Positions 4,448 through 28,849 of a DNA stretch of 34,203 nt are shown here, one piece after another; positions within the stretch are counted from its first letter, which is position 1; the number at the start of each line of letters is the position of its first letter. Location: IMG/VR virus record IMGVR_UViG_3300009091_000037, positions 1 to 34,203 of that record, one strand, 5' to 3'. The notes under the pieces were generated by a model. That model had not been told where the DNA came from. It did no database searches and saw only the letters and a program-made list of their open reading frames with translations. The position numbers and the translations under genes are program-made. The DNA is from a virus.

Positions 4448-6388
4448 TTGGAAGAAAAGTATTTCTTCTTAGAGTCGGATGAGAAAATAGCCACAGAAAT
4501 ATTCAAACGCGTTAATATGTTTCAAGAGTTCGCGATTGCTGAAGGCTATTATTACAACTGGTATAAGAACAAAAAATATTATCACGGCTATTACTTTGGA
4601 TACAAAGGCTCTGATATTGTTGAGTGCGGTGATCAAAGCGAACTTCATGCCGCTACATTCAATCATTTCAGAAACGTCCTAAGGCATACGATTAATCAAG
4701 CGTCTGGGGATATTCCTTCATTCTCTGTTTCCGCTTCAAACACAGACCCTGTCTCACGTAGGGCATCTCGCATCGGGAAAGATATTATCAACTACTACTT
4801 CAAGGTGAAACGATGTGTAAAGTACATCAATGAGGCGATCGAGTATGGGGTTGTCCAGGGCGATGGGTATGTTGTTTGCGAGTATAATCCCTTAATAGGA
4901 GAAGAGCATGTATCGGATGAGACTGGTACGATAAGAAAAAAGGGTGATTTGGATTTACATGCTTTAGGTCCAACGGATGTTTTTTTTGATGTGGCCCAAA
5001 AATCAAAAGAAGATTGGCAATGGGTGATTTTTAGAACCAGGAAAAATAAATATAATTTAGCCGCTGCATTTCCTGATCTGGCAGAAGATATTCTGTCGAT
5101 CCCTGCATACTTTGAAATTGACAAATATTTCATGAATCAAATAGATGCTCTCAAAATGACGTATGCAAAAGATGAAATCTATATTTATTCCGCCTATCAC
5201 AATCCATGCGAAATTATGCCAAACGGCGGCTATTGTATGTTTGCTGGAAATTTTGGAAAACCAATTTTCCTGTTTCGCAATGTAGATAAAAATGGAAAAG
5301 ACTTCAATCCATATGGTCGACTCCCAATATTTTATATTTCTCCTTCAAAATATATGGATACTTCATTCGGTCGAACGGATGCAAACGATTTACGCTCTCC
5401 TCAAGAGATGTTAACCGTGGCCGTTTCAAGTATGATTTCAAATGCCGCTGCATTTTCCGCCAATAATATATGGTGTCCTGATGGAAACGTAGAGATAGAA
5501 GAGCTTTTGGGGGGTATGAATTTAATCAAGAGTTCAACAAAGCCAGAGGTTGTTTCCTTTTTTCAACAAAATCCGGCGTTCACAGATTTGATGAATATTT
5601 GTATTGGGACAATTGAGACTCTGAGTGCTCAAAGTGCTGTCGTTCGCGGTGACTTAGAAAAACTGCCTCAATTGAAATCTGGAATTGCCCTAATGACAGT
5701 GTTGAACCAATCAAAAGAATTCTCTCAAGCTCTCATTAAGTCCGTGTATGAATGCTATGAAGATCTCGGGACTTTTATTCTTGAGACATTACAACGCGTT
5801 GCAACGGTTGAGCGATTTGTTGAGGTTGTTGGAAAAATGAATACAAACGCTGTGGTGTCTTTTACGTCCGACGACATTAAGGCTGCAAAACGAGTTGTAG
5901 TTGATCGAACCAATCCAATCGCGAATCAGCCAGCTGGCCAAATTGAAATCGCAGATAATTTGCTACAAAAAGGCCAACTCTCAAAAACTGAATTTTTGAA
6001 TGTTGTTAATACCGGAAAGCTTCAAACAGCAACAGAATCGGACGAAAGAATGCTAGATTTTATTGCTGTTGTGAAAGAAAAACTATTAAAAGGTGAAACG
6101 ATGGTTCCGATTCATGGAATCAATCATCAACTATATATTAAAGAATTGCAAGCGTTGGTTTTTGACGCAGACATTTTAACCAATCCAAACAATCAGACGA
6201 TTCTGAAAAATATTATGGAATTAGTTCAGGCTCAACTTGAAATCGTAAGAGAAGGGGATGAAGTGGCCAACTTTATTTATGGCGGTACCCCCCCTACTCC
6301 AAGAGTTCCATTGAATCAACCGGAATTAATGCCATTAGGGCAAACAATAGCACCACAACCAATCGGCCCCACTCAACCTAATCAATAG
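4448..6388 (+). CDS. portal protein
   Basis: A 646-residue protein that forms the dodecameric ring at the capsid vertex through which DNA is packaged and ejected. Evidence is its size, its place directly before scaffold and major capsid genes, and the long P22/T7-type portal pattern: aromatic N-terminal helix region, ASGDIPSFSVSA and the following RRASRIGKDIINYYFKV segment (about 85-120), and a Pro/Gln-rich C-terminal tail. The start is TTG 4448, with GGAG 5 nt upstream. The first gene after the late promoter. Terminase is not adjacent but in the minus-strand operon, an unusual split. Confidence 0.85.
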   Translation: MEEKYFFLESDEKIATEIFKRVNMFQEFAIAEGYYYNWYKNKKYYHGYYFGYKGSDIVECGDQSELHAATFNHFRNVLRHTINQASGDIPSFSVSASNTDPVSRRASRIGKDIINYYFKVKRCVKYINEAIEYGVVQGDGYVVCEYNPLIGEEHVSDETGTIRKKGDLDLHALGPTDVFFDVAQKSKEDWQWVIFRTRKNKYNLAAAFPDLAEDILSIPAYFEIDKYFMNQIDALKMTYAKDEIYIYSAYHNPCEIMPNGGYCMFAGNFGKPIFLFRNVDKNGKDFNPYGRLPIFYISPSKYMDTSFGRTDANDLRSPQEMLTVAVSSMISNAAAFSANNIWCPDGNVEIEELLGGMNLIKSSTKPEVVSFFQQNPAFTDLMNICIGTIETLSAQSAVVRGDLEKLPQLKSGIALMTVLNQSKEFSQALIKSVYECYEDLGTFILETLQRVATVERFVEVVGKMNTNAVVSFTSDDIKAAKRVVVDRTNPIANQPAGQIEIADNLLQKGQLSKTEFLNVVNTGKLQTATESDERMLDFIAVVKEKLLKGETMVPIHGINHQLYIKELQALVFDADILTNPNNQTILKNIMELVQAQLEIVREGDEVANFIYGGTPPTPRVPLNQPELMPLGQTIAPQPIGPTQPNQ

Positions 6389-7551: not shown

Positions 7552-8847
7552 ATGTCATCCGTTAACACAACCGTCAATTTGAATGCCAACTTTAAAAAAA
7601 GTTATGCTGATCTACCGGCCAAACTGATTCCTGATAGTGTTATTTTTGCAAGAGAAATTCCAGAGGTCAAAAGAGAATCAACTCCAGGTGGAATATACAG
7701 TAGAATGGTAGTTGTATCTTCTGAGCAAGGTATTACAAAAGCGCCTAGCGGCGGTACTCTTGGGGCTTTTGCGTTGAACAGTCCCGAATCGATGAATGTT
7801 CAGGAGGCTCAGGTATCGGGCTCTGAATTGGTTCTTAGAATGTCATGGTCATATAAAGTCATGTCCTCTTCTGCCAATTCTCCAAACAAGTTTGAAGATG
7901 TAACAAAACTAGTAGTTGCCAATTCATTGGAGAGTGCGTGGTTTCATCAAGAGGCTGATATATTATGGGGACAAGATGCAAAAGGCGTTGGAGTTATTTC
8001 AGATAAAAACTTTACAAACAACACTATTGATATTTCGGAAGCCGAGTTTGCTTTTGGCTTGTTTGTTGGAAGAGAAAGATCTTGGTTAGCCATTGAAAGT
8101 GCAGCTGGCCAGTTACGTGGATATATTCAGATTTCCCAAGTAGACATTGAGAATCGAAGGATTTACACCGACTCTACAACTCCGGTACCAGTTGGGACAA
8201 TCGCCGGTGATATTATTAGACTTAAGGCCGATGGGTTATTGGGAGTTAATTCATTTATCGGACTTCACAAAGCCTGTTTGACAACAACCGGCACATTGTT
8301 CAACGTTCCAACAACATACTCACTCTGGAAGCCATTGGGTGATTATGATATTGGCGGACAACCACTGTCGTTCCAAAAGTTACTACAAGTATTGTTTAGG
8401 CCAATTTCTCGCGGTTTAGGAAAGTCATTCAAAGAGATCGAAGTGTATGTATCACCTAGAACGTGGATGAGCATTTCTCAAGATGAAGTGGCTCGTAGAA
8501 AATATGACTGGTCCTATTCTTCAAAAGGATACCAGAATGGTGCAGATAACATCACTTATACTTGCATGGCCGGTACCTTGACTCTGCGAAGTCACGACTT
8601 GATGAAGCAGGGATACGCGTTGATTATGCCAAAGGCATCACGTTGTATGGAGAAGATCGGTTCTCAGTCCACGCCTACGTTCAAAATTCCTGGACAAATG
8701 AATGCAACCGGCGGAGAAGATTATTTGATGCCGATGCCAAACAACGCAGGATACGAGTCCCGTCTATATTATGACACAAGTATTCTAAGCCCTTATTTTC
8801 CACAAATGCAATGGATTACTGGGATTACAAACCCAGCTTTAGTTTAA
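7552..8847 (+). CDS. major capsid protein
   Basis: A 431-residue protein immediately after the scaffold gene, in the position and size range of HK97-fold coat proteins of P22-like phages. The sequence is strand-rich with few charged runs. An N-terminal segment (LIPDSVIFAREIPEVKRES) precedes a Gly-rich loop typical of coat E-loops. I see no close match to P22 gp5 by eye, so the assignment rests on context. GGGAG precedes the ATG. A long stem-loop follows the stop. Confidence 0.85.
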   Translation: MSSVNTTVNLNANFKKSYADLPAKLIPDSVIFAREIPEVKRESTPGGIYSRMVVVSSEQGITKAPSGGTLGAFALNSPESMNVQEAQVSGSELVLRMSWSYKVMSSSANSPNKFEDVTKLVVANSLESAWFHQEADILWGQDAKGVGVISDKNFTNNTIDISEAEFAFGLFVGRERSWLAIESAAGQLRGYIQISQVDIENRRIYTDSTTPVPVGTIAGDIIRLKADGLLGVNSFIGLHKACLTTTGTLFNVPTTYSLWKPLGDYDIGGQPLSFQKLLQVLFRPISRGLGKSFKEIEVYVSPRTWMSISQDEVARRKYDWSYSSKGYQNGADNITYTCMAGTLTLRSHDLMKQGYALIMPKASRCMEKIGSQSTPTFKIPGQMNATGGEDYLMPMPNNAGYESRLYYDTSILSPYFPQMQWITGITNPALV

Positions 8848-14182: not shown

Positions 14183-15106
14183 ATGGTATACACCACAACA
14201 AAGCTATTAAACGCCATTCGAGAAGATGCATCATTGCCGTCTTCTGCAAAAAATAAATTCGGAGACGACAAGCTGCTTAGGATCTTGACAGAAGAGAATG
14301 ATCTACGTGTTACTAAACTTCTATTGAGAGAAAAGGCGGATTTCTACGTTGAGCACGTTGATATTCCTTTAGTTGCTAATACGTCTGAATATGCACTTCC
14401 TTCCAAGGCTATTGGTTGGAGTCTATACGAGATTGGGTTCATTGGGACTGATGGACAATATATGTCTGTTGGAAAAAGTAGTTTGAATTATCAATCGGCC
14501 TATAATGTCATGGTTCCAACGTCAACTCCAAGGCTTGTATTCATTGAGGGAAATAAACTGATTACGCAACCTAAGATTAATGATTCTCCACAAGGAAGTT
14601 TTAGGTTGTATTATGAACGCAAACAGAGTGAATTTACAACGGTCGCAGCATGTGGAAGGATTTCAGAAGTCAATTCAAATGATACAAACTATTTGTTAAC
14701 CGTCGATTCGGTCCCAATTCTTTCCGACGGTGTAGATGTTATTGCCGGAACCAATCCGTTTGGAATTATTTCAGAGAATCAAACGGCAACAGCGGTCGGG
14801 TCAGTTCTCAATATTCTAAAAACTTCTTTTGTCATTACTCCAACCGTCGGTGATTATGTGACCCCAACAGGAAAAACATGCATTCCACACGTTCCCGAAG
14901 AGATGCATTCAGCATTGGTTAGATGCGCCGTAGCTAGATGTATTGGAATGATCGGAGGGGCAAATAATGCAAATAATTATGCGATTGCAGAAAAAGAACG
15001 GGATACTGTTTTGGAACTTGCCAGGCAATCACTGAAATCTCGGATTCAAAATCGTCCGAAAAAATTAATTTCAAAAAACTTTGTGCTCAATTTAATGAGG
15101 TATTAA
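14183..15106 (+). CDS. head-tail adaptor (P22 gp4 / T7 gp11-type)
   Basis: A 307-residue protein directly before the nozzle gene, as in P22- and T7-like phages. The N-terminal helical part (about 1-55: LNAIREDASLP, LLRILTEENDLRVTKLLL) and the C-terminal helices (PEEMHSALVRCAVARCIGMIGG, AIAEKERDTVLELARQSL) frame a beta-rich insert, as in adaptor rings. It is expected to sit under the portal and seal the DNA-filled head. The ribosome-binding site is weak and translation may depend on the upstream gene, whose stop is 3 nt away. Confidence 0.65.
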   Translation: MVYTTTKLLNAIREDASLPSSAKNKFGDDKLLRILTEENDLRVTKLLLREKADFYVEHVDIPLVANTSEYALPSKAIGWSLYEIGFIGTDGQYMSVGKSSLNYQSAYNVMVPTSTPRLVFIEGNKLITQPKINDSPQGSFRLYYERKQSEFTTVAACGRISEVNSNDTNYLLTVDSVPILSDGVDVIAGTNPFGIISENQTATAVGSVLNILKTSFVITPTVGDYVTPTGKTCIPHVPEEMHSALVRCAVARCIGMIGGANNANNYAIAEKERDTVLELARQSLKSRIQNRPKKLISKNFVLNLMRY

Positions 15107-17884
15107 GTGTCGGAATATAAGTATTTCTTTGAAAAGGTCGGGATAAAAACACACAAAAATCCTATTGTTGAACAAAATGGATCTGCTTTATTGTGTACTA
15201 ATTTTGACTTAATCAGAGATAATATTTACAAAAAATCTCGTGGTAGGATCGCTTACGGTAGCGGACTTCCTGAAGATTGTACTTTTTTACAATTGCTTCA
15301 ATATCAATCTCGGTTATTTGTTCATCTATCGAAAGACACTGCATTTAATATTTATTATGACAGTGACGGGGTCGGAACGTTTACAAAAAAAGTAGATAAC
15401 AATGCGAATGATTTATTTTATGCCCCTACAAATTGGAAAATAAAATCAATTGAAGAGAATGGAAATCTATATATCACCTCTTCAATTGGAATACAAAAAC
15501 TAGACTCATTGTCTGGTACTTTCAAAAAAGCAGGGACAAAAAAATGCTTAGGCTCTGATTTAAGAATTATTGACATCACTGGAAACTGGTTGCCAACAGC
15601 CAACGCAGTATCCTATAGAACGTTGTCGTATTATAAAGATGCGAATAACAATCAAATTATTGGGTCCCCATCGGATCGTCAAGATATATCGAACGCATCA
15701 GGTGCAGATAGATCCGTGGAACTTAAAATATTTTTATCGGACGACATTACAGTTAATCACACGATTGAAATATATCGATCAAGTGCCATTACTTCATCGT
15801 CTGTCCCACCTGAAGATTTTCAACAAGTATATGAAGCGAATCCAACCAGTGCAGAAGTCGCCCAGGGATATATGATTGTAAATGATATTGTCCCTGAAAC
15901 ATTTAGAGGGAAAGCACTCTACACAAACCCAACTCAAGAGGGAATTCAAAAATCAAAAGACCTACCACCATTAGCCCAATCCATTACTAAATTTAGAACT
16001 AGAACTTTTTATGGAAATATAAAAACAACTCAAGAGTTGAACACAACATTAATCAGCGCATCTAAATTAATCCCAGGATCGAGTACATTAACTATTGCAA
16101 ATGGAACGGAATCGCTAATAATTGGGTGCGTTACTGAAATATCAGACAAAACACTTAATGCTGTTGCGAATAATGGTGGAGTATGCGAACTCACAACGTC
16201 CATTAATCATGGCTATTCAACTGGAATGTTTTTACGTCTCGTAGATATCGTCGGAGCCGGTGGGTTCGATACAAATGCCACCGGAGTTTGGAAAATAACC
16301 GTAACGGCTTTAAATAAGTTTACGATAACATTGGCTTGGAACGCAGGCTATACATGCACGTCCGGTACTTCTATTTTACATGAAGACATTGATACGTCGC
16401 CAAGGTTTATTCAATATACAAGTGGAACGTCAAGTCAGAATATTGACAAGACGGCGCGAAGTATTGTGAAAGCATTACAGCTTAGTAGTGGAAATACAAA
16501 GTGGGATGCATATTATACCAGTGGATACGCTGATTTACCTGGAAAGTTTTTAATTAGAAATAAAATAGTCGGAGATGCTTTATTTTATTTAACGACAAGT
16601 GACGATGTGACAAAAACCTGCTTCAGTCCACAAATCCCAACTTCGGGGACCAATTATAAATCAACCAACAATGAATTCAAAAATGGTATATTATATTCAG
16701 AAGACAATCAACCAGAAGCGGTTCCGAGTTTAAATATTTTATATGTTGGTTCATCAAACGACGATATCATTGATATTGTAGGACTTCGAGACGCATTATA
16801 TATTATTAAAAAGAATAATGGAATATGGAGACTCACAGGGGATACTCCCAGCTCTTTTCTGTGTACAGAAGTGGATGGAACGGTAGAATGTTTGCAGCCA
16901 TTTTCTATTGCAAAAGGTGAGAATTCTATTTTCATGATGAGCTGTAATGGTTATGTAAGAATAGCGGACACAGGCGTTGAGATCATCGGACGAGATATTG
17001 AATTAGATACATATAGAACAATCTATAACTCTGGATATCAAGAGGCTGGCTATGGATGGGTTTATGAAACAGAGAAATCATATTTTATTTCCACATTTTT
17101 AAATCAATCATCAACTCAGGTTGATATTACTCGAGTTTATAATACAACAACAAACGGATGGACCACACGTGGTTACGGTATGTATACAAACGGTCCAAGC
17201 ATTAAAATGGGACTTGTTGTTGATAACTTGATGTATATGGCACCCATGACAGGAAATCAAATTTTAAAAGAAAGAAAATCTTATAATGCGAATGATTTTT
17301 ATGAGCCTGATATTTCGGTTAACATTGACAGTATTACTGGAAACTTGGTTCATTTGATAGATCCAATCGTTATTCCAACAGAATGTATATTGGTTCAAGG
17401 TGATAATACTTTTACGATTCAATCGATCAATTCAACAGGTACTGTGTTAACATTTTTATCAACAGACTCCATAGTATTGGGAGCTGCGACGATTAAGCAA
17501 GGCGTGGATAGTGACATAACGTTTAATCCTGTTCATTGTTCTATTCCAGACTGGGAGAAGGTTTTTCAGCGTTTATTAATCTTTTTTGATAACAATGAAA
17601 CGAATATATCCAATATTCATATCTATACATCAACAAATTCCGAACTGGATGAAATTGAAACACAGTGGAACCCAAACTATTCCAACCCATTCGGAGCGCT
17701 TCCTTGGGGCGAATTATGGGGAGAAAAAACAATCACTGATTTTATGAACATGCTCATTCCAGACAAACATTCCTTAGCAAACTTTTTAAAAATACGATTA
17801 CGCCATTGCAGGGCCGGTGAAAACATGGCTTTGACAGGCTTGTCATTTATTTTTGAACAAACAGATAATCGTGGAGGGAATTAG
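15107..17884 (+). CDS. tail nozzle protein (P22 gp10 / T7 gp12-type)
   Basis: A 925-residue, strand-rich protein starting at GTG 15107, directly after the adaptor stop, with GAGGT upstream. Size, position and the propeller-like repeats (INDIVGLRDALYIIKKNNGIW, ENSIFMMSCNGYVRIADTGVEIIG at about 550-640) fit the hub/nozzle that closes the short tail. The C-terminal region (about 760-925) looks like a separate beta domain. The stop is immediately followed by the next ATG. Confidence 0.75.
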   Translation: MSEYKYFFEKVGIKTHKNPIVEQNGSALLCTNFDLIRDNIYKKSRGRIAYGSGLPEDCTFLQLLQYQSRLFVHLSKDTAFNIYYDSDGVGTFTKKVDNNANDLFYAPTNWKIKSIEENGNLYITSSIGIQKLDSLSGTFKKAGTKKCLGSDLRIIDITGNWLPTANAVSYRTLSYYKDANNNQIIGSPSDRQDISNASGADRSVELKIFLSDDITVNHTIEIYRSSAITSSSVPPEDFQQVYEANPTSAEVAQGYMIVNDIVPETFRGKALYTNPTQEGIQKSKDLPPLAQSITKFRTRTFYGNIKTTQELNTTLISASKLIPGSSTLTIANGTESLIIGCVTEISDKTLNAVANNGGVCELTTSINHGYSTGMFLRLVDIVGAGGFDTNATGVWKITVTALNKFTITLAWNAGYTCTSGTSILHEDIDTSPRFIQYTSGTSSQNIDKTARSIVKALQLSSGNTKWDAYYTSGYADLPGKFLIRNKIVGDALFYLTTSDDVTKTCFSPQIPTSGTNYKSTNNEFKNGILYSEDNQPEAVPSLNILYVGSSNDDIIDIVGLRDALYIIKKNNGIWRLTGDTPSSFLCTEVDGTVECLQPFSIAKGENSIFMMSCNGYVRIADTGVEIIGRDIELDTYRTIYNSGYQEAGYGWVYETEKSYFISTFLNQSSTQVDITRVYNTTTNGWTTRGYGMYTNGPSIKMGLVVDNLMYMAPMTGNQILKERKSYNANDFYEPDISVNIDSITGNLVHLIDPIVIPTECILVQGDNTFTIQSINSTGTVLTFLSTDSIVLGAATIKQGVDSDITFNPVHCSIPDWEKVFQRLLIFFDNNETNISNIHIYTSTNSELDEIETQWNPNYSNPFGALPWGELWGEKTITDFMNMLIPDKHSLANFLKIRLRHCRAGENMALTGLSFIFEQTDNRGGN

Positions 17885-24776: not shown

Positions 24777-24956
24777 CTAATCCTTTTTTCTCTCTCGATA
24801 ACATCCATGACAAACTAAAACCTGTCCAAGTGATTGCGCTCGTTTATATTCCGATAATTTTAAGTTCTCAATAGACAATATTCTCATATGAAAAGATAGG
24901 TATTTAGAATGGTCTTTTTTCTCTCGGATTGCTTTTCTACAAATAAAACAATTCAT
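24777..24956 (-). CDS. zinc-finger-like small protein coupled to terminase
   Basis: A 59-residue ORF, below common length cut-offs. Its ATG overlaps the TGA of the large terminase (ATGA, 24956-24953), a strong sign of translational coupling. Two Cys pairs, C3-x2-C6 and C49-x2-C52, frame a helical Arg/Lys-rich middle, so it likely binds one zinc ion. It could assist packaging or nucleic-acid binding, but no named family is evident. The last gene of the minus-strand late unit. Confidence 0.7.
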   Translation of the reverse strand: MNCFICRKAIREKKDHSKYLSFHMRILSIENLKLSEYKRAQSLGQVLVCHGCYRERKKD

Positions 24957-26563
24957 AGACTACCGACTCCTCTTTTTCCAAACATTTTTTTAAGTGAACC
25001 CTGTGTTTCACGTGAAACAATTTTGGGTCCTAGAAAAAGGTTCTCATCGTATTGTTTTGCGTAAAGAACAGGATAAGGGTTTTTATTCCAGTCAATATTG
25101 TCTAGTAAATAAGCAAGCGCAATAAGTAAATCTAAATGACCAAACGTTGAAGACCGTTCAAAGTCTGTCCGATGCTCATTCCAGGTTCCGAACTTAACTT
25201 GATTGATTAAGTTTGTACATCGTGGATGAATTATTATTTTTGTGTTTTGAATAGCAATCCTAAGTCCATTAATAACACTGTCTTTCCATGTTTGATGGGG
25301 TTGTTTACTTCGTTTTAGGATCGGAGAAACATGATAATGGAATGAGTTTGACATGTCATACAATTGTTGTTTAGCTGAACAGTCCCCGATTCGTTTGTGA
25401 ATCATCGGAGGCAGTTCTTTTTGTTGAAGTAATCGCTCTCTCTTTTGAATAGGTGTTTCACTATAGAACTCAGTCATACCTAGTGCTTTTTCCTTTTCCT
25501 TTGCTAGTCGCACAATGTTTTCTGTTGTTTCATAATTTAAAAACAATTCATCTTCAATAATTAGTTGTGAATTTTTAAAATCTAAGTATCCAAAAACGGC
25601 CCCCATGTAATCCACTAATCCAAAATCATAGCCAACATAAAAATCTAAAAAAGAAGGACGCTCAACTTCTCCGATCCAATTAAAATTTTGAGAGGCTTCG
25701 GGAATTACTAATCTGGATGAGTCCGCAGTGAAAAAACAAGAGATATCGTCCGAAGGATATTCTTTGTTGAATTCAATTTCTGATTTTAGATCTTCTATTT
25801 TCTGCCTTCTAAAAGCCATTTGTTGTCGATTTAAACAATGATTAGCTATTTTCTTGATCTTATCCATATATTCCAATTCACTTTGACTGTAAGTATCATT
25901 ATCGCTCATAACAACATATGCTTTATGATTATACCACGGGAAAAATATATTTATTTTTGACACGGATGCTTTTATATAGTCTTCATAATACCAGTTTTGG
26001 CCATTCGGAGTTGTCTCTGAGGAGTAATGCACAGAAGGGGGCAGGGCGCCCAATGTCGCCGATACGCGTTGTAAATCTTGAAAGGCTGTTTCCGATAAAT
26101 GAAGTCGATGAATAGTGGACGATCGATTTTCAAGTCCAACAGAGATCCTGGAATTTAATTCAGGAAAAAAATATTCAAACTTAGACCCACCGCCTCTATC
26201 AAGAGAAGGCCTACAATCTTGTGGAAGTTTTTCATAGGCATATTTTACGATGCGGAATAATTTTTCAATTGATTTTTGTTCATGGGATTGAATATAGACA
26301 TTGAGATTTTTATTAAAGATGCAATCGTCAAAATAATTCAGAATGAAAAACGTGGATATTCCAAGCTGTCTTGCTTTTAGAATGTTTGGATTAATAATTA
26401 AAACGTCATTTTTAAAACACTGTTTCCATATTTGATATTGTTCGTCGTTAAATTGAAAGATTCGGTCAACTCCTGATTTGTCAATAATATGATAGAGATT
26501 ATTTAAACGCCACAATTTAGAGGATAGTTTTTTTTTATATTTGTCGAAGTCTTCTTTATTCAT
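24953..26563 (-). CDS. terL: terminase large subunit
   Basis: The 536-residue DNA-packaging motor. An N-terminal ATPase carries a Walker A-like KARQLGIST (63-71) and the Walker B region IHRLHLSE (151-158, catalytic Glu 158). The C-terminal RNase H-like nuclease includes GYDFG (311-315, metal-binding Asp 313) and a late acidic residue in GHLDLLIALAYL (near 490). Its start overlaps the end of the small-terminase reading frame by 8 nt. The terminase lies with the lysis genes and not next to the portal. Confidence 0.93.
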   Translation of the reverse strand: MNKEDFDKYKKKLSSKLWRLNNLYHIIDKSGVDRIFQFNDEQYQIWKQCFKNDVLIINPNILKARQLGISTFFILNYFDDCIFNKNLNVYIQSHEQKSIEKLFRIVKYAYEKLPQDCRPSLDRGGGSKFEYFFPELNSRISVGLENRSSTIHRLHLSETAFQDLQRVSATLGALPPSVHYSSETTPNGQNWYYEDYIKASVSKINIFFPWYNHKAYVVMSDNDTYSQSELEYMDKIKKIANHCLNRQQMAFRRQKIEDLKSEIEFNKEYPSDDISCFFTADSSRLVIPEASQNFNWIGEVERPSFLDFYVGYDFGLVDYMGAVFGYLDFKNSQLIIEDELFLNYETTENIVRLAKEKEKALGMTEFYSETPIQKRERLLQQKELPPMIHKRIGDCSAKQQLYDMSNSFHYHVSPILKRSKQPHQTWKDSVINGLRIAIQNTKIIIHPRCTNLINQVKFGTWNEHRTDFERSSTFGHLDLLIALAYLLDNIDWNKNPYPVLYAKQYDENLFLGPKIVSRETQGSLKKMFGKRGVGSL

Positions 26564-26696
26564 CTTTTTTCAATAAATCAACAAGCTGAGAATGAGATAG
26601 ATTCATATTTCCAGACACGTCCACTTTTAGATTTTTTGATTCAATGACTGACAAAATTTTAATAATTAAATCCGATTTTTCCTTATCTGACAGTTT
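26556..26696 (-). pseudogene. C-terminal half of small terminase, downstream of an in-frame TAA
   Basis: Directly after the TAA (26699-26697) the same frame stays open for 46 codons without its own start, beginning KLSDKEKSDLIIKIL and ending LVDLLKKDE before a TAA that overlaps the terL start. The continuing protein-like sequence and the match to normal small-terminase length (about 130 residues) suggest one original gene interrupted by a nonsense codon, or stop-codon read-through. An internal ATG (26606) has only a weak GGA upstream. Confidence 0.65.
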
Positions 26697-26954
26697 TTAA
26701 TTCTCTGAAAATAATAACTCTTGAATTTTTATAGCCGGAACCTTAAAAAAGTTTTTTTCTTTTTTATCAAATTTCATATTAAGAAGAGTTTCTAAAAATG
26801 TTTGACGTTGTAGTTGTTTTATTTTCTCCTCTTCAAATGCCTTTTTCCATCCTGCACGTTTAGCTTCTGATGACGGCTGATATTCAGACGTGAATTTTTT
26901 TCCAGGCAATGGAAAGTTTGGGTTCCCTCTTTTATTATTTCCTTCTCTTTTCAT
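26697..26954 (-). CDS. terS: terminase small subunit, N-terminal part (ends at in-frame TAA)
   Basis: An 85-residue basic protein read from ATG 26954 (a GTG two codons earlier is an alternative). It begins KREGNNKRGNPNFPLPGKKF, a typical disordered start of phage small terminases, and then a helix (EAKRAGWKKAFEEEKIKQLQRQ) for DNA recognition. The position directly before terL supports the call. It ends at TAA 26699-26697, after which the frame continues (see the next entry), so this product may lack its oligomerisation or terL-contact part. Confidence 0.7.
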   Translation of the reverse strand: MKREGNNKRGNPNFPLPGKKFTSEYQPSSEAKRAGWKKAFEEEKIKQLQRQTFLETLLNMKFDKKEKNFFKVPAIKIQELLFSEN

Positions 26955-26960
26955 GGTCAC

Positions 26961-27422
26961 TCACACACTAATCATTTTGTTACATGGTCGTCTAAATAAT
27001 TTTGATTCTGTTTCTCGTCTATTCTCAAGTCCCTTAACAACAACCCCATCGCATTTATTCCATTTTAACATCTCTAAAGGAATTTTGTAAAAGTTTTTTT
27101 GATTCAATAATTTTAAAACTTCAGAAGTTTTAAAATGTCCGATTCCAATATTATAAACGAATAAAACAAGTGCATCCCATTGATTTTGATTTAATGGAAC
27201 TAGAATCAATGGAAATAGCTGTAATTCAAGCTCTTCAATCAATTGTTTTAATAGTTTATCTGCTTCTGGAATATTTATGATTGTTGATTGAGTTACAGGT
27301 TTATTATTTATAAACGTGAATCCGTGGCCCACGGTCCATATTCCTTTTGAATCCTGGTATGCATTTCTTTTGAATCCTTCCAGTCCCTTTAGCGTTAAAT
27401 ATGCTTGAGTTGATAAAATCAT
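26961..27422 (-). CDS. endolysin, T4-type lysozyme (GH24)
   Basis: A 153-residue muramidase that cuts the peptidoglycan glycan chain. The start at 27422 (MILSTQ) is chosen for the AAGGA upstream; the longer form has none. The catalytic set E15 (LEGF), D24 (YQDSKG) and T30 (WTVGHG) is intact. The C-terminal half has NQNQWDALVLFVYNIG and the NRRETESKLF segment typical of the family. No signal peptide, so release depends on a holin. The stop is next to the small terminase start. Confidence 0.92.
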   Translation of the reverse strand: MILSTQAYLTLKGLEGFKRNAYQDSKGIWTVGHGFTFINNKPVTQSTIINIPEADKLLKQLIEELELQLFPLILVPLNQNQWDALVLFVYNIGIGHFKTSEVLKLLNQKNFYKIPLEMLKWNKCDGVVVKGLENRRETESKLFRRPCNKMISV

Positions 27423-27491
27423 TTTTATTCCTTTGCATGTTTCCACTTAGATTAAACCATGTCCTTGTAATTAACGAAATGGTTTAAAAAA

Positions 27492-27785
27492 TTAAAACGG
27501 TGGTGGATTAACTGGATTTACTTGCTCTTGCTGATTTTGGTTATTCATTTCTTCAAATTTTTGACGTTCTATCATTTGTTTAATGTCAATTGTTTTCCAA
27601 TATAGCCAATAATAAATAGCACATGCAACCAGAGTGATAATGGCTCCTATCCAACCTAAACCGACTTTATCCAAAACAGAAATAAAGTTTGATTCAATAA
27701 TTATTTTTAATGCTTTTTGTAGTAGATCCAAAGGAACCAATTCCGGTGCATATTGAGAATAATCAAATGTAAATTTTTTAGTCAT
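27492..27785 (-). CDS. single-membrane-segment protein, holin candidate
   Basis: A 97-residue protein, coupled by ATGA to the gene upstream. It has a soluble N-terminus (about 1-40), one membrane segment (about 44-66: WIGAIITLVACAIYYWLYW) and a Gln/Asn/Pro-rich tail. Position just before the lysozyme gene makes it the best holin candidate in the window, though topology with one segment and a long N-terminus also fits a pinholin or i-spanin. Confidence 0.6.
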   Translation of the reverse strand: MTKKFTFDYSQYAPELVPLDLLQKALKIIIESNFISVLDKVGLGWIGAIITLVACAIYYWLYWKTIDIKQMIERQKFEEMNNQNQQEQVNPVNPPPF

Positions 27786-27991
27786 ATTTTATTTTCTATA
27801 TTACTAGAATTAATATCTGTTATTTTAATTTTATAACAATCAAGATCAAATCCTGATATTAATATTGAAGTACGAGATATATCAGTTATCATAAAAGAAG
27901 TAGCCTCCTCTTTTGTTTCAAATTTTTTTGTTTTTAATTCATTTTCATCAATATAAACAACCATAAATTCATTTTGCATTTTAAAACCCAT
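27782..27991 (-). CDS. small unrecognised protein
   Basis: A 69-residue ORF with alternating strands and helix (FMVVYIDENELKTKKFETKEEATSFM). The GFKMQNEF start is uncertain: ATG 27991 or ATG 27979. The first is chosen only because it follows the neighbouring stop. The C-terminal codons supply the start of the holin candidate through an ATGA overlap. Possibly a small host-directed protein; no motif. Confidence 0.5.
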   Translation of the reverse strand: MGFKMQNEFMVVYIDENELKTKKFETKEEATSFMITDISRTSILISGFDLDCYKIKITDINSSNIENKI

Positions 27992-28001
27992 TTCTTTTGT
28001 T

Positions 28002-28154
28002 TTAAGGATTTATAACTTTATCTACTTCGACCATACATCCATTCTCAGAATGATATAAAATTGCTTCTGCTAATTCATCCCATTGTTCTTCTGTTGCGTT
28101 TCCACTTTTAAATAATTGAATAACTTTATCTTTATATTCATTGATCGTCATCAT
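28002..28154 (-). CDS. small helical acidic protein
   Basis: A 50-residue ORF missed by common length cut-offs. Its ATG (28154) overlaps the TGA of the secreted-protein gene (ATGA), with AGGGGA about 6 nt upstream. The sequence is protein-like and helical (EYKDKVIQLFKSGNATEEQWDELAE). No family recognised. It is one of a run of coupled genes ahead of the lysis genes. Confidence 0.6.
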   Translation of the reverse strand: MMTINEYKDKVIQLFKSGNATEEQWDELAEAILYHSENGCMVEVDKVINP

Positions 28155-28849
28155 TTCCATTCCCCTGGCATGGGTTGATTCAATAACGACATCGTATCCG
28201 ACAAGTGCATTCCTTTACAAAAATAAGTCTCTCTCATCATATATGATTCGGTTATAACACAAAATCGAGACGAAGGAGAACTAAACGAAACATCGTCCAT
28301 TGAATTATTCCAATTTGTTACATATACCTTTACATGGTGTGCATAACTTCCAACGATAATATTAGTTTGTTCTAAATAAATATCGGTCATTCTTTCATAT
28401 TGAGGATCGACCAGAATAATTCTAGCTTCAAAAAAAGAATTCATATATTCTGGTCGATCCATTGGATAGATTGACCCACGACATATAAATGAATTTACCC
28501 CATTAAATTCAGACTGTGGAATATAAAAATCAAATATTTTATTTGCTTCAATAATTTGAATAGAATTTCCAAAATTTGCCTTTATTGTGCCTGTACATTG
28601 GAATTGGAATTTATACTGATAATTTTTTTGAATTCTGAAGTTGAGATTTTGAGTTGGATTATGCCTTTTTGTACAAGCTCCAATATAGTTATCGATATCA
28701 ATACACGCCCTGAGTGGAACGCCTATCCATACGTCAACCTCTGGGCTATTAGCTATACCAGAATTAATCTTCGCTCTATCATCCTCATGGGATATTTCTG
28801 CATGAGCACATGAGTAAAAAATAAAAAATAAAAATAAAATTTTATTCAT
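28151..28849 (-). CDS. secreted Cys-containing protein, unrecognised
   Basis: A 232-residue protein with a clear signal peptide (KILFLFFIFYSCAHA, cut expected after A17; a Cys at 14 makes a lipobox unlikely). The mature part is strand-rich with several cysteines that could pair as disulfides, consistent with a periplasmic or outer-surface location. Its ATG overlaps the remnant tail of the repeat module upstream (LKGHL stop, ATGA), and the module tail supplies its Shine-Dalgarno (GAAAGGA). It may be a periplasmic lysis or exclusion factor; unproven. Confidence 0.65.
   Translation of the reverse strand: MNKILFLFFIFYSCAHAEISHEDDRAKINSGIANSPEVDVWIGVPLRACIDIDNYIGACTKRHNPTQNLNFRIQKNYQYKFQFQCTGTIKANFGNSIQIIEANKIFDFYIPQSEFNGVNSFICRGSIYPMDRPEYMNSFFEARIILVDPQYERMTDIYLEQTNIIVGSYAHHVKVYVTNWNNSMDDVSFSSPSSRFCVITESYMMRETYFCKGMHLSDTMSLLNQPMPGEWK

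Follow-up and report, generated by a model that had tools for sequence, protein, structure and literature searches.

An in-frame TAA interrupts the small terminase gene (terS) of the phage sequence analysed here, and we consider it probable (roughly 80%) that this codon is an isolated nonsense mutation, or an error in the consensus, within a single 132-residue TerS rather than a programmed stop. The sequence, hereafter the window, is an IMG/VR virus record of 34,203 bases with 35% G+C. Translation of the minus strand places the terS ATG at 26954-26952 and the internal TAA at 26699-26697 (codon 86), giving a 5' part of 85 codons from ATG to stop (26697..26954, minus strand) and a severed 3' part (26556..26696, minus strand) in which 46 sense codons are followed by a terminal TAA at 26558-26556. 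An endolysin (phage lysozyme) gene lies immediately upstream of terS (26961..27446, minus strand; PF00959, E 5e-35; phrog_7, E 1e-40). At the other end, the ATG of the large terminase gene (terL; 24953..26563, minus strand; 536 residues) stands at 26563, and the two genes overlap by 8 bases, as ATGAATAA. This layout bears out the initial annotation, made from the sequence alone, which described a frame that stops at 26699-26697 and then stays open for 46 codons up to the terL overlap.

The split gene is assigned to terS from its place before terL and from homology to proteins in the TerS position of other viruses, because homologues of its N-terminal part lie upstream of TerLs, some of which belong to the same family as that of the window. 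The window TerL matches phrog_2 (terminase large subunit, E 7e-15) and gives tblastn matches in 230 phage records. The split frame carries the N-terminal motif FTSEYQPSxEAKxxGW, and a degenerate DNA pattern for YQPSxEAKxxGW run on IMG/VR returned eight loci, seven of which encode clear homologues of the N-terminal part of TerS (E 1e-9 to 1e-5); for example, the TerS of locus L237 is 56% identical to it over 45 residues (E 1e-9). The next gene in four of these seven loci, which represent two distinct TerS sequences, encodes a TerL 29% identical to that of the window over residues 61-292. A profile built from the N-part homologues then yielded 22 IMG/VR loci. The resulting homologues (L235-L264) comprise about 15 distinct sequences of 112-153 residues counted from the ATG, all in unbroken frames, and at two of the loci, L255 and L257, the next gene likewise encodes a TerL from the same family as that of the window (27-28% identity). 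In the alignment of 16 sequences, eight columns within F....QP..EAK..G do not vary, and neither does the initial Met. The claim that the TAA splits a small terminase gene thus holds, the motif homologues being single unbroken ORFs.

Curated profiles gave no significant Pfam or PHROG match to the split frame, and five of its homologues were likewise without a significant PHROG match; a PHROG tail-chaperone match (E 0.02) and Pfam DUF matches to the read-through protein were discarded as too weak. The PHROG and Pfam libraries appear to lack this family, which the homologues assembled here serve to define, and because the searched libraries lack it, terS would escape recognition by automatic annotation: a gene caller would give an 85-residue protein, lose the C-terminal third and fail to name the gene. 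The window protein resembles phage small terminases in general in its place right before terL, its length of about 132 residues if read through and, as far as a low-confidence model predicts them, its helices and C-terminal tail, but differs from them in matching no PHROG or Pfam TerS model and in stopping after 85 residues.

It should be noted that no close relative of the window was found, in searches from which near-identical records may have been excluded, the nearest TerS being 38% and the nearest TerL about 31% identical over long stretches. A DNA similarity search of phage records gave no match to the window, and nothing was returned when IMG/VR and GTDB genomes were queried with the TerL protein alone, when IMG/VR was queried with the TerS protein alone, or by a capsid alignment search. 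Likewise, neither the window TerS nor one homologue gave a tblastn match in phages. TerL alignment searches yielded up to 80 loci each, and these TerL relatives carry other kinds of TerS, with no similarity to that of the window. Two unusual arrangements were seen among the loci collected. At L257 (3302-4414), a 370-residue open frame, to which Pfam gives no match, combines a region with HNH-like Cys/His motifs and a C-terminal TerS of the window's family, a putative fusion. At L072 (1853-2527), an ORF upstream of terL starts with Terminase_2 small-subunit sequence that continues into a GIY-YIG domain (PF22945), and another TerS-like ORF follows closely downstream; this is likely a homing-endonuclease insertion.

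The 46-codon piece beyond the stop is not a chance open stretch, since coding bias is found in the terS frame on both sides of the TAA. The length of the piece alone would arise by chance with a probability of about 3% at the base composition of the window. Codon-usage scores in the terS frame are +22 bits before the TAA and +8.7 bits after it (+17 and +9.4 bits when rescored with an out-of-frame background), and the remaining forward frames at terS all score negatively. The description of these codons as protein-like is upheld both by this bias and by homology to an unbroken relative. As both halves share one frame, a frameshift was rejected as the cause of the split. No other ORF is split in the way terS is across 34 kb, as judged by a window-wide scan for ORF pairs split in-frame. 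The other in-frame neighbouring segments in the window represent normal pairs of adjacent genes, in which the ATG or GTG start falls at codon 0-3 or, in one case, at codon 19. The second half of terS has no ATG, GTG or TTG within 14 codons past the TAA; its first start is a TTG at codon 15 that lacks a ribosome-binding site, and its first ATG is at codon 31.

The best homologue of the window TerS, the unbroken 136-residue protein of L243 (3300033153_006119), aligns colinearly across the TAA, with 39 of 104 residues identical (38%; E 7e-15). The C-terminal part on its own also matches the C-terminal part of L243, with a score of 56 that was equalled by 4 of 20,000 shuffles. Since L243 aligns across the stop and the C-terminal part also matches by itself, the two pieces are best read from homology as one 132-residue protein with one nonsense codon, not as two genes; a separate gene for the C-terminal part was rejected, as this part lacks a good start and is colinear with L243. 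Because the window segment FSEN-stop-KLSDKEKSDLIIKI lies over FASDSPLREKEKIELICKI of L243, L243 has a sense codon in the column of the TAA. The initial annotation had expected a sense codon here in close relatives, and such a codon is present, but at 38% identity L243 is not a close relative. The terS of L243, whose frame is unbroken, also lies directly upstream of a terminase-like gene, although this downstream gene showed no match to the window TerL. Other homologues also continue without a stop, with gaps in their alignment near the TAA column, and none of the homologues found, all of them distant relatives, has a stop at this position. Two separate conserved genes in relatives, which would have spoken against a split terS, were not seen as far as these homologues allow the comparison, each being a single unbroken ORF. 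One homologous terS is itself broken (L261:52-165, contig 3300001335_000011): compared with L255, which comes from the same dataset, it seems to have lost about 32 bases close to the contig end. We considered and rejected the idea that this break points to recoding that recurs in the family, because the lesion looks like a deletion and lies elsewhere in the gene, close to where the contig ends.

An isolated change of this kind may stem from the metagenome consensus, through a wrong base or a mixture of strains, or from the sampled phage itself, through a nonsense mutation of very recent date. The absence of a second stop from the 46 codons, and of any other ORF split in this manner, would fit a young or artefactual change. 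If the TAA is real, the product would be an 85-residue TerS that has lost its C-terminal tail and one predicted helix; all unbroken homologues are longer (at least 112 residues). A structure model was built from the 16-sequence alignment, with the TAA read as lysine solely to let the chain fold. It has helices at residues 29-58, 71-81, 90-107 and 121-130 and places the stop (residue 86) in a loop, at low confidence for the four-helix arrangement (mean pLDDT 61, pTM 0.42); in this model, truncation at residue 85 would remove helices 90-107 and 121-130. TerS is essential in vivo; lambda TerS binds TerL through its C-terminal region, and P22 TerS no longer associates with TerL once its tail is deleted (PMC9611059). 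By analogy, the 85-residue product would lack the TerL-binding region known from lambda and P22.

The consequences may extend to terL. Its Shine-Dalgarno energy is -1.3 kcal/mol, compared with -4 to -13 kcal/mol for most window genes, and because this ribosome-binding site is weak and the start lies in the ATGAATAA overlap, terL probably depends on translation through the end of terS. This suggests coupling, with terL translated mainly by ribosomes finishing terS. With a real TAA, ribosomes would stop 133 bases short of the terL start, the level of TerL would probably drop as well, and poor packaging would be expected of such a genome in the absence of complementation. We thus infer a loss of TerS function and a polar effect on terL, just as we infer an origin by mutation or error. 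A similar arrangement is seen elsewhere on the same strand, at 27492-27991, where two consecutive small genes have Shine-Dalgarno energies of about 0 to -1 kcal/mol, resembling terL, and the second overlaps the stop of the preceding gene, suggesting translational coupling there also.

Among the explanations listed in the initial annotation, an isolated mutation or sequence error is favoured, and the data disfavour both read-through and a working short form. Regulated or host-dependent read-through, or a host suppressor tRNA, would produce short and long TerS in a set ratio, and we regard this as unlikely. The C-terminal part does still show coding bias and homology, and its end, which overlaps terL, is intact; an unequal ratio of the two forms could tune packaging, as TerS excess is inhibitory in some phages (PMC9611059). 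Conserved in-frame stops, suspected of read-through, occur in bacterial genes and are over-represented in mobile-element genes (PMC7918605); the window TAA is like these cases in being one stop within an otherwise conserved frame, but they are conserved in at least two genomes, whereas it was seen once. Programmed read-through is expected to leave a stop conserved among relatives together with a conserved extension, but no homologue found, all of them distant, has a stop here, and a single occurrence looks the same as a mutation. Moreover, the RNA 3' of the stop is less structured than shuffled sequences (z +1.68), with no stimulatory structure found downstream of the TAA, and a tRNA gene search of the 34,203-base window detected no tRNA or tmRNA gene, and hence no suppressor tRNA within it. 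TAA is the ordinary stop of this genome, since it ends 27 of the 43 predicted ORFs, and it is not read as sense across many genes as in a stop-reassigned genome. Such recoding is known, for example, from crAss-like phages, in which TAG is read as glutamine. The window shares with stop-recoded phages an in-frame stop in a late gene, but it has a single TAA in one gene, TAA ends most of its genes, and it carries no suppressor tRNA. A stronger form of the same idea, in which recoding at the TAA has become fixed in one clade and sets the ratio of short to long TerS and, through coupling, the level of TerL as a dosage control on the packaging motor, is highly improbable. A stop that was fixed and read through would be an unusual way of setting the TerS:TerL ratio; nothing here supports it.

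It is also very doubtful that the 85-residue form suffices, with the C-terminal part either vestigial or made as a separate peptide by internal initiation that keeps terL coupled. The N-terminal part does bear the most conserved motif of the family, and the best canonical restart by anti-Shine-Dalgarno pairing, the ATG at 26606 (codon 31; a partial match, -6.6 kcal/mol), would translate into the terL overlap. However, its product of 16 residues is too short to stand in for the lost domain, no start lies closer to the stop than the TTG noted above, the unbroken homologues all exceed the short form in length, and in lambda and P22 it is the C-terminal region that binds TerL (PMC9611059). The absence of a good restart, claimed in the initial annotation, is thereby confirmed. 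The last explanation, and the least probable of those weighed here, is that the window is a defective prophage in decay, with terS as one dead gene among several. Prophage genes commonly turn into pseudogenes, and a nonsense codon in terS would block packaging. An old pseudogene or decaying prophage is nevertheless disfavoured because no other ORF across 34 kb is split in-frame and the C-terminal part has no second lesion. In addition, the window has open and recognisable genes for the portal, a probable capsid protein, recombination (Erf) and lysis, the ORFs searched included no recognisable integrase, and there was no sign of a host flank. An isolated nonsense mutation or consensus error in one terS remains the preferred reading.

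Two further observations concern the window as a whole. Distant homologues (19-29% identity) of its portal (4448-6388), its probable capsid protein (7552-8847) and two further proteins of the same block (14183-15106 and 15107-17884) are found in a Silvanigrella aquatica phage (CP017838), and the host of the window phage may be a Silvanigrella relative. The TerLs of the two phages show marginal similarity only, confined to the C-terminal 114 residues (E 4e-7). With homology across the block proteins but so little between the TerLs, an exchange of the terminase module relative to the S. aquatica phage seems to have taken place. Finally, a stretch of 70 open codons at 28002-28214 (minus strand), shorter than the usual limit for ORF lists, has a coding bias of +23 bits and overlaps the ends of both neighbouring genes; it is probably a small unannotated gene.
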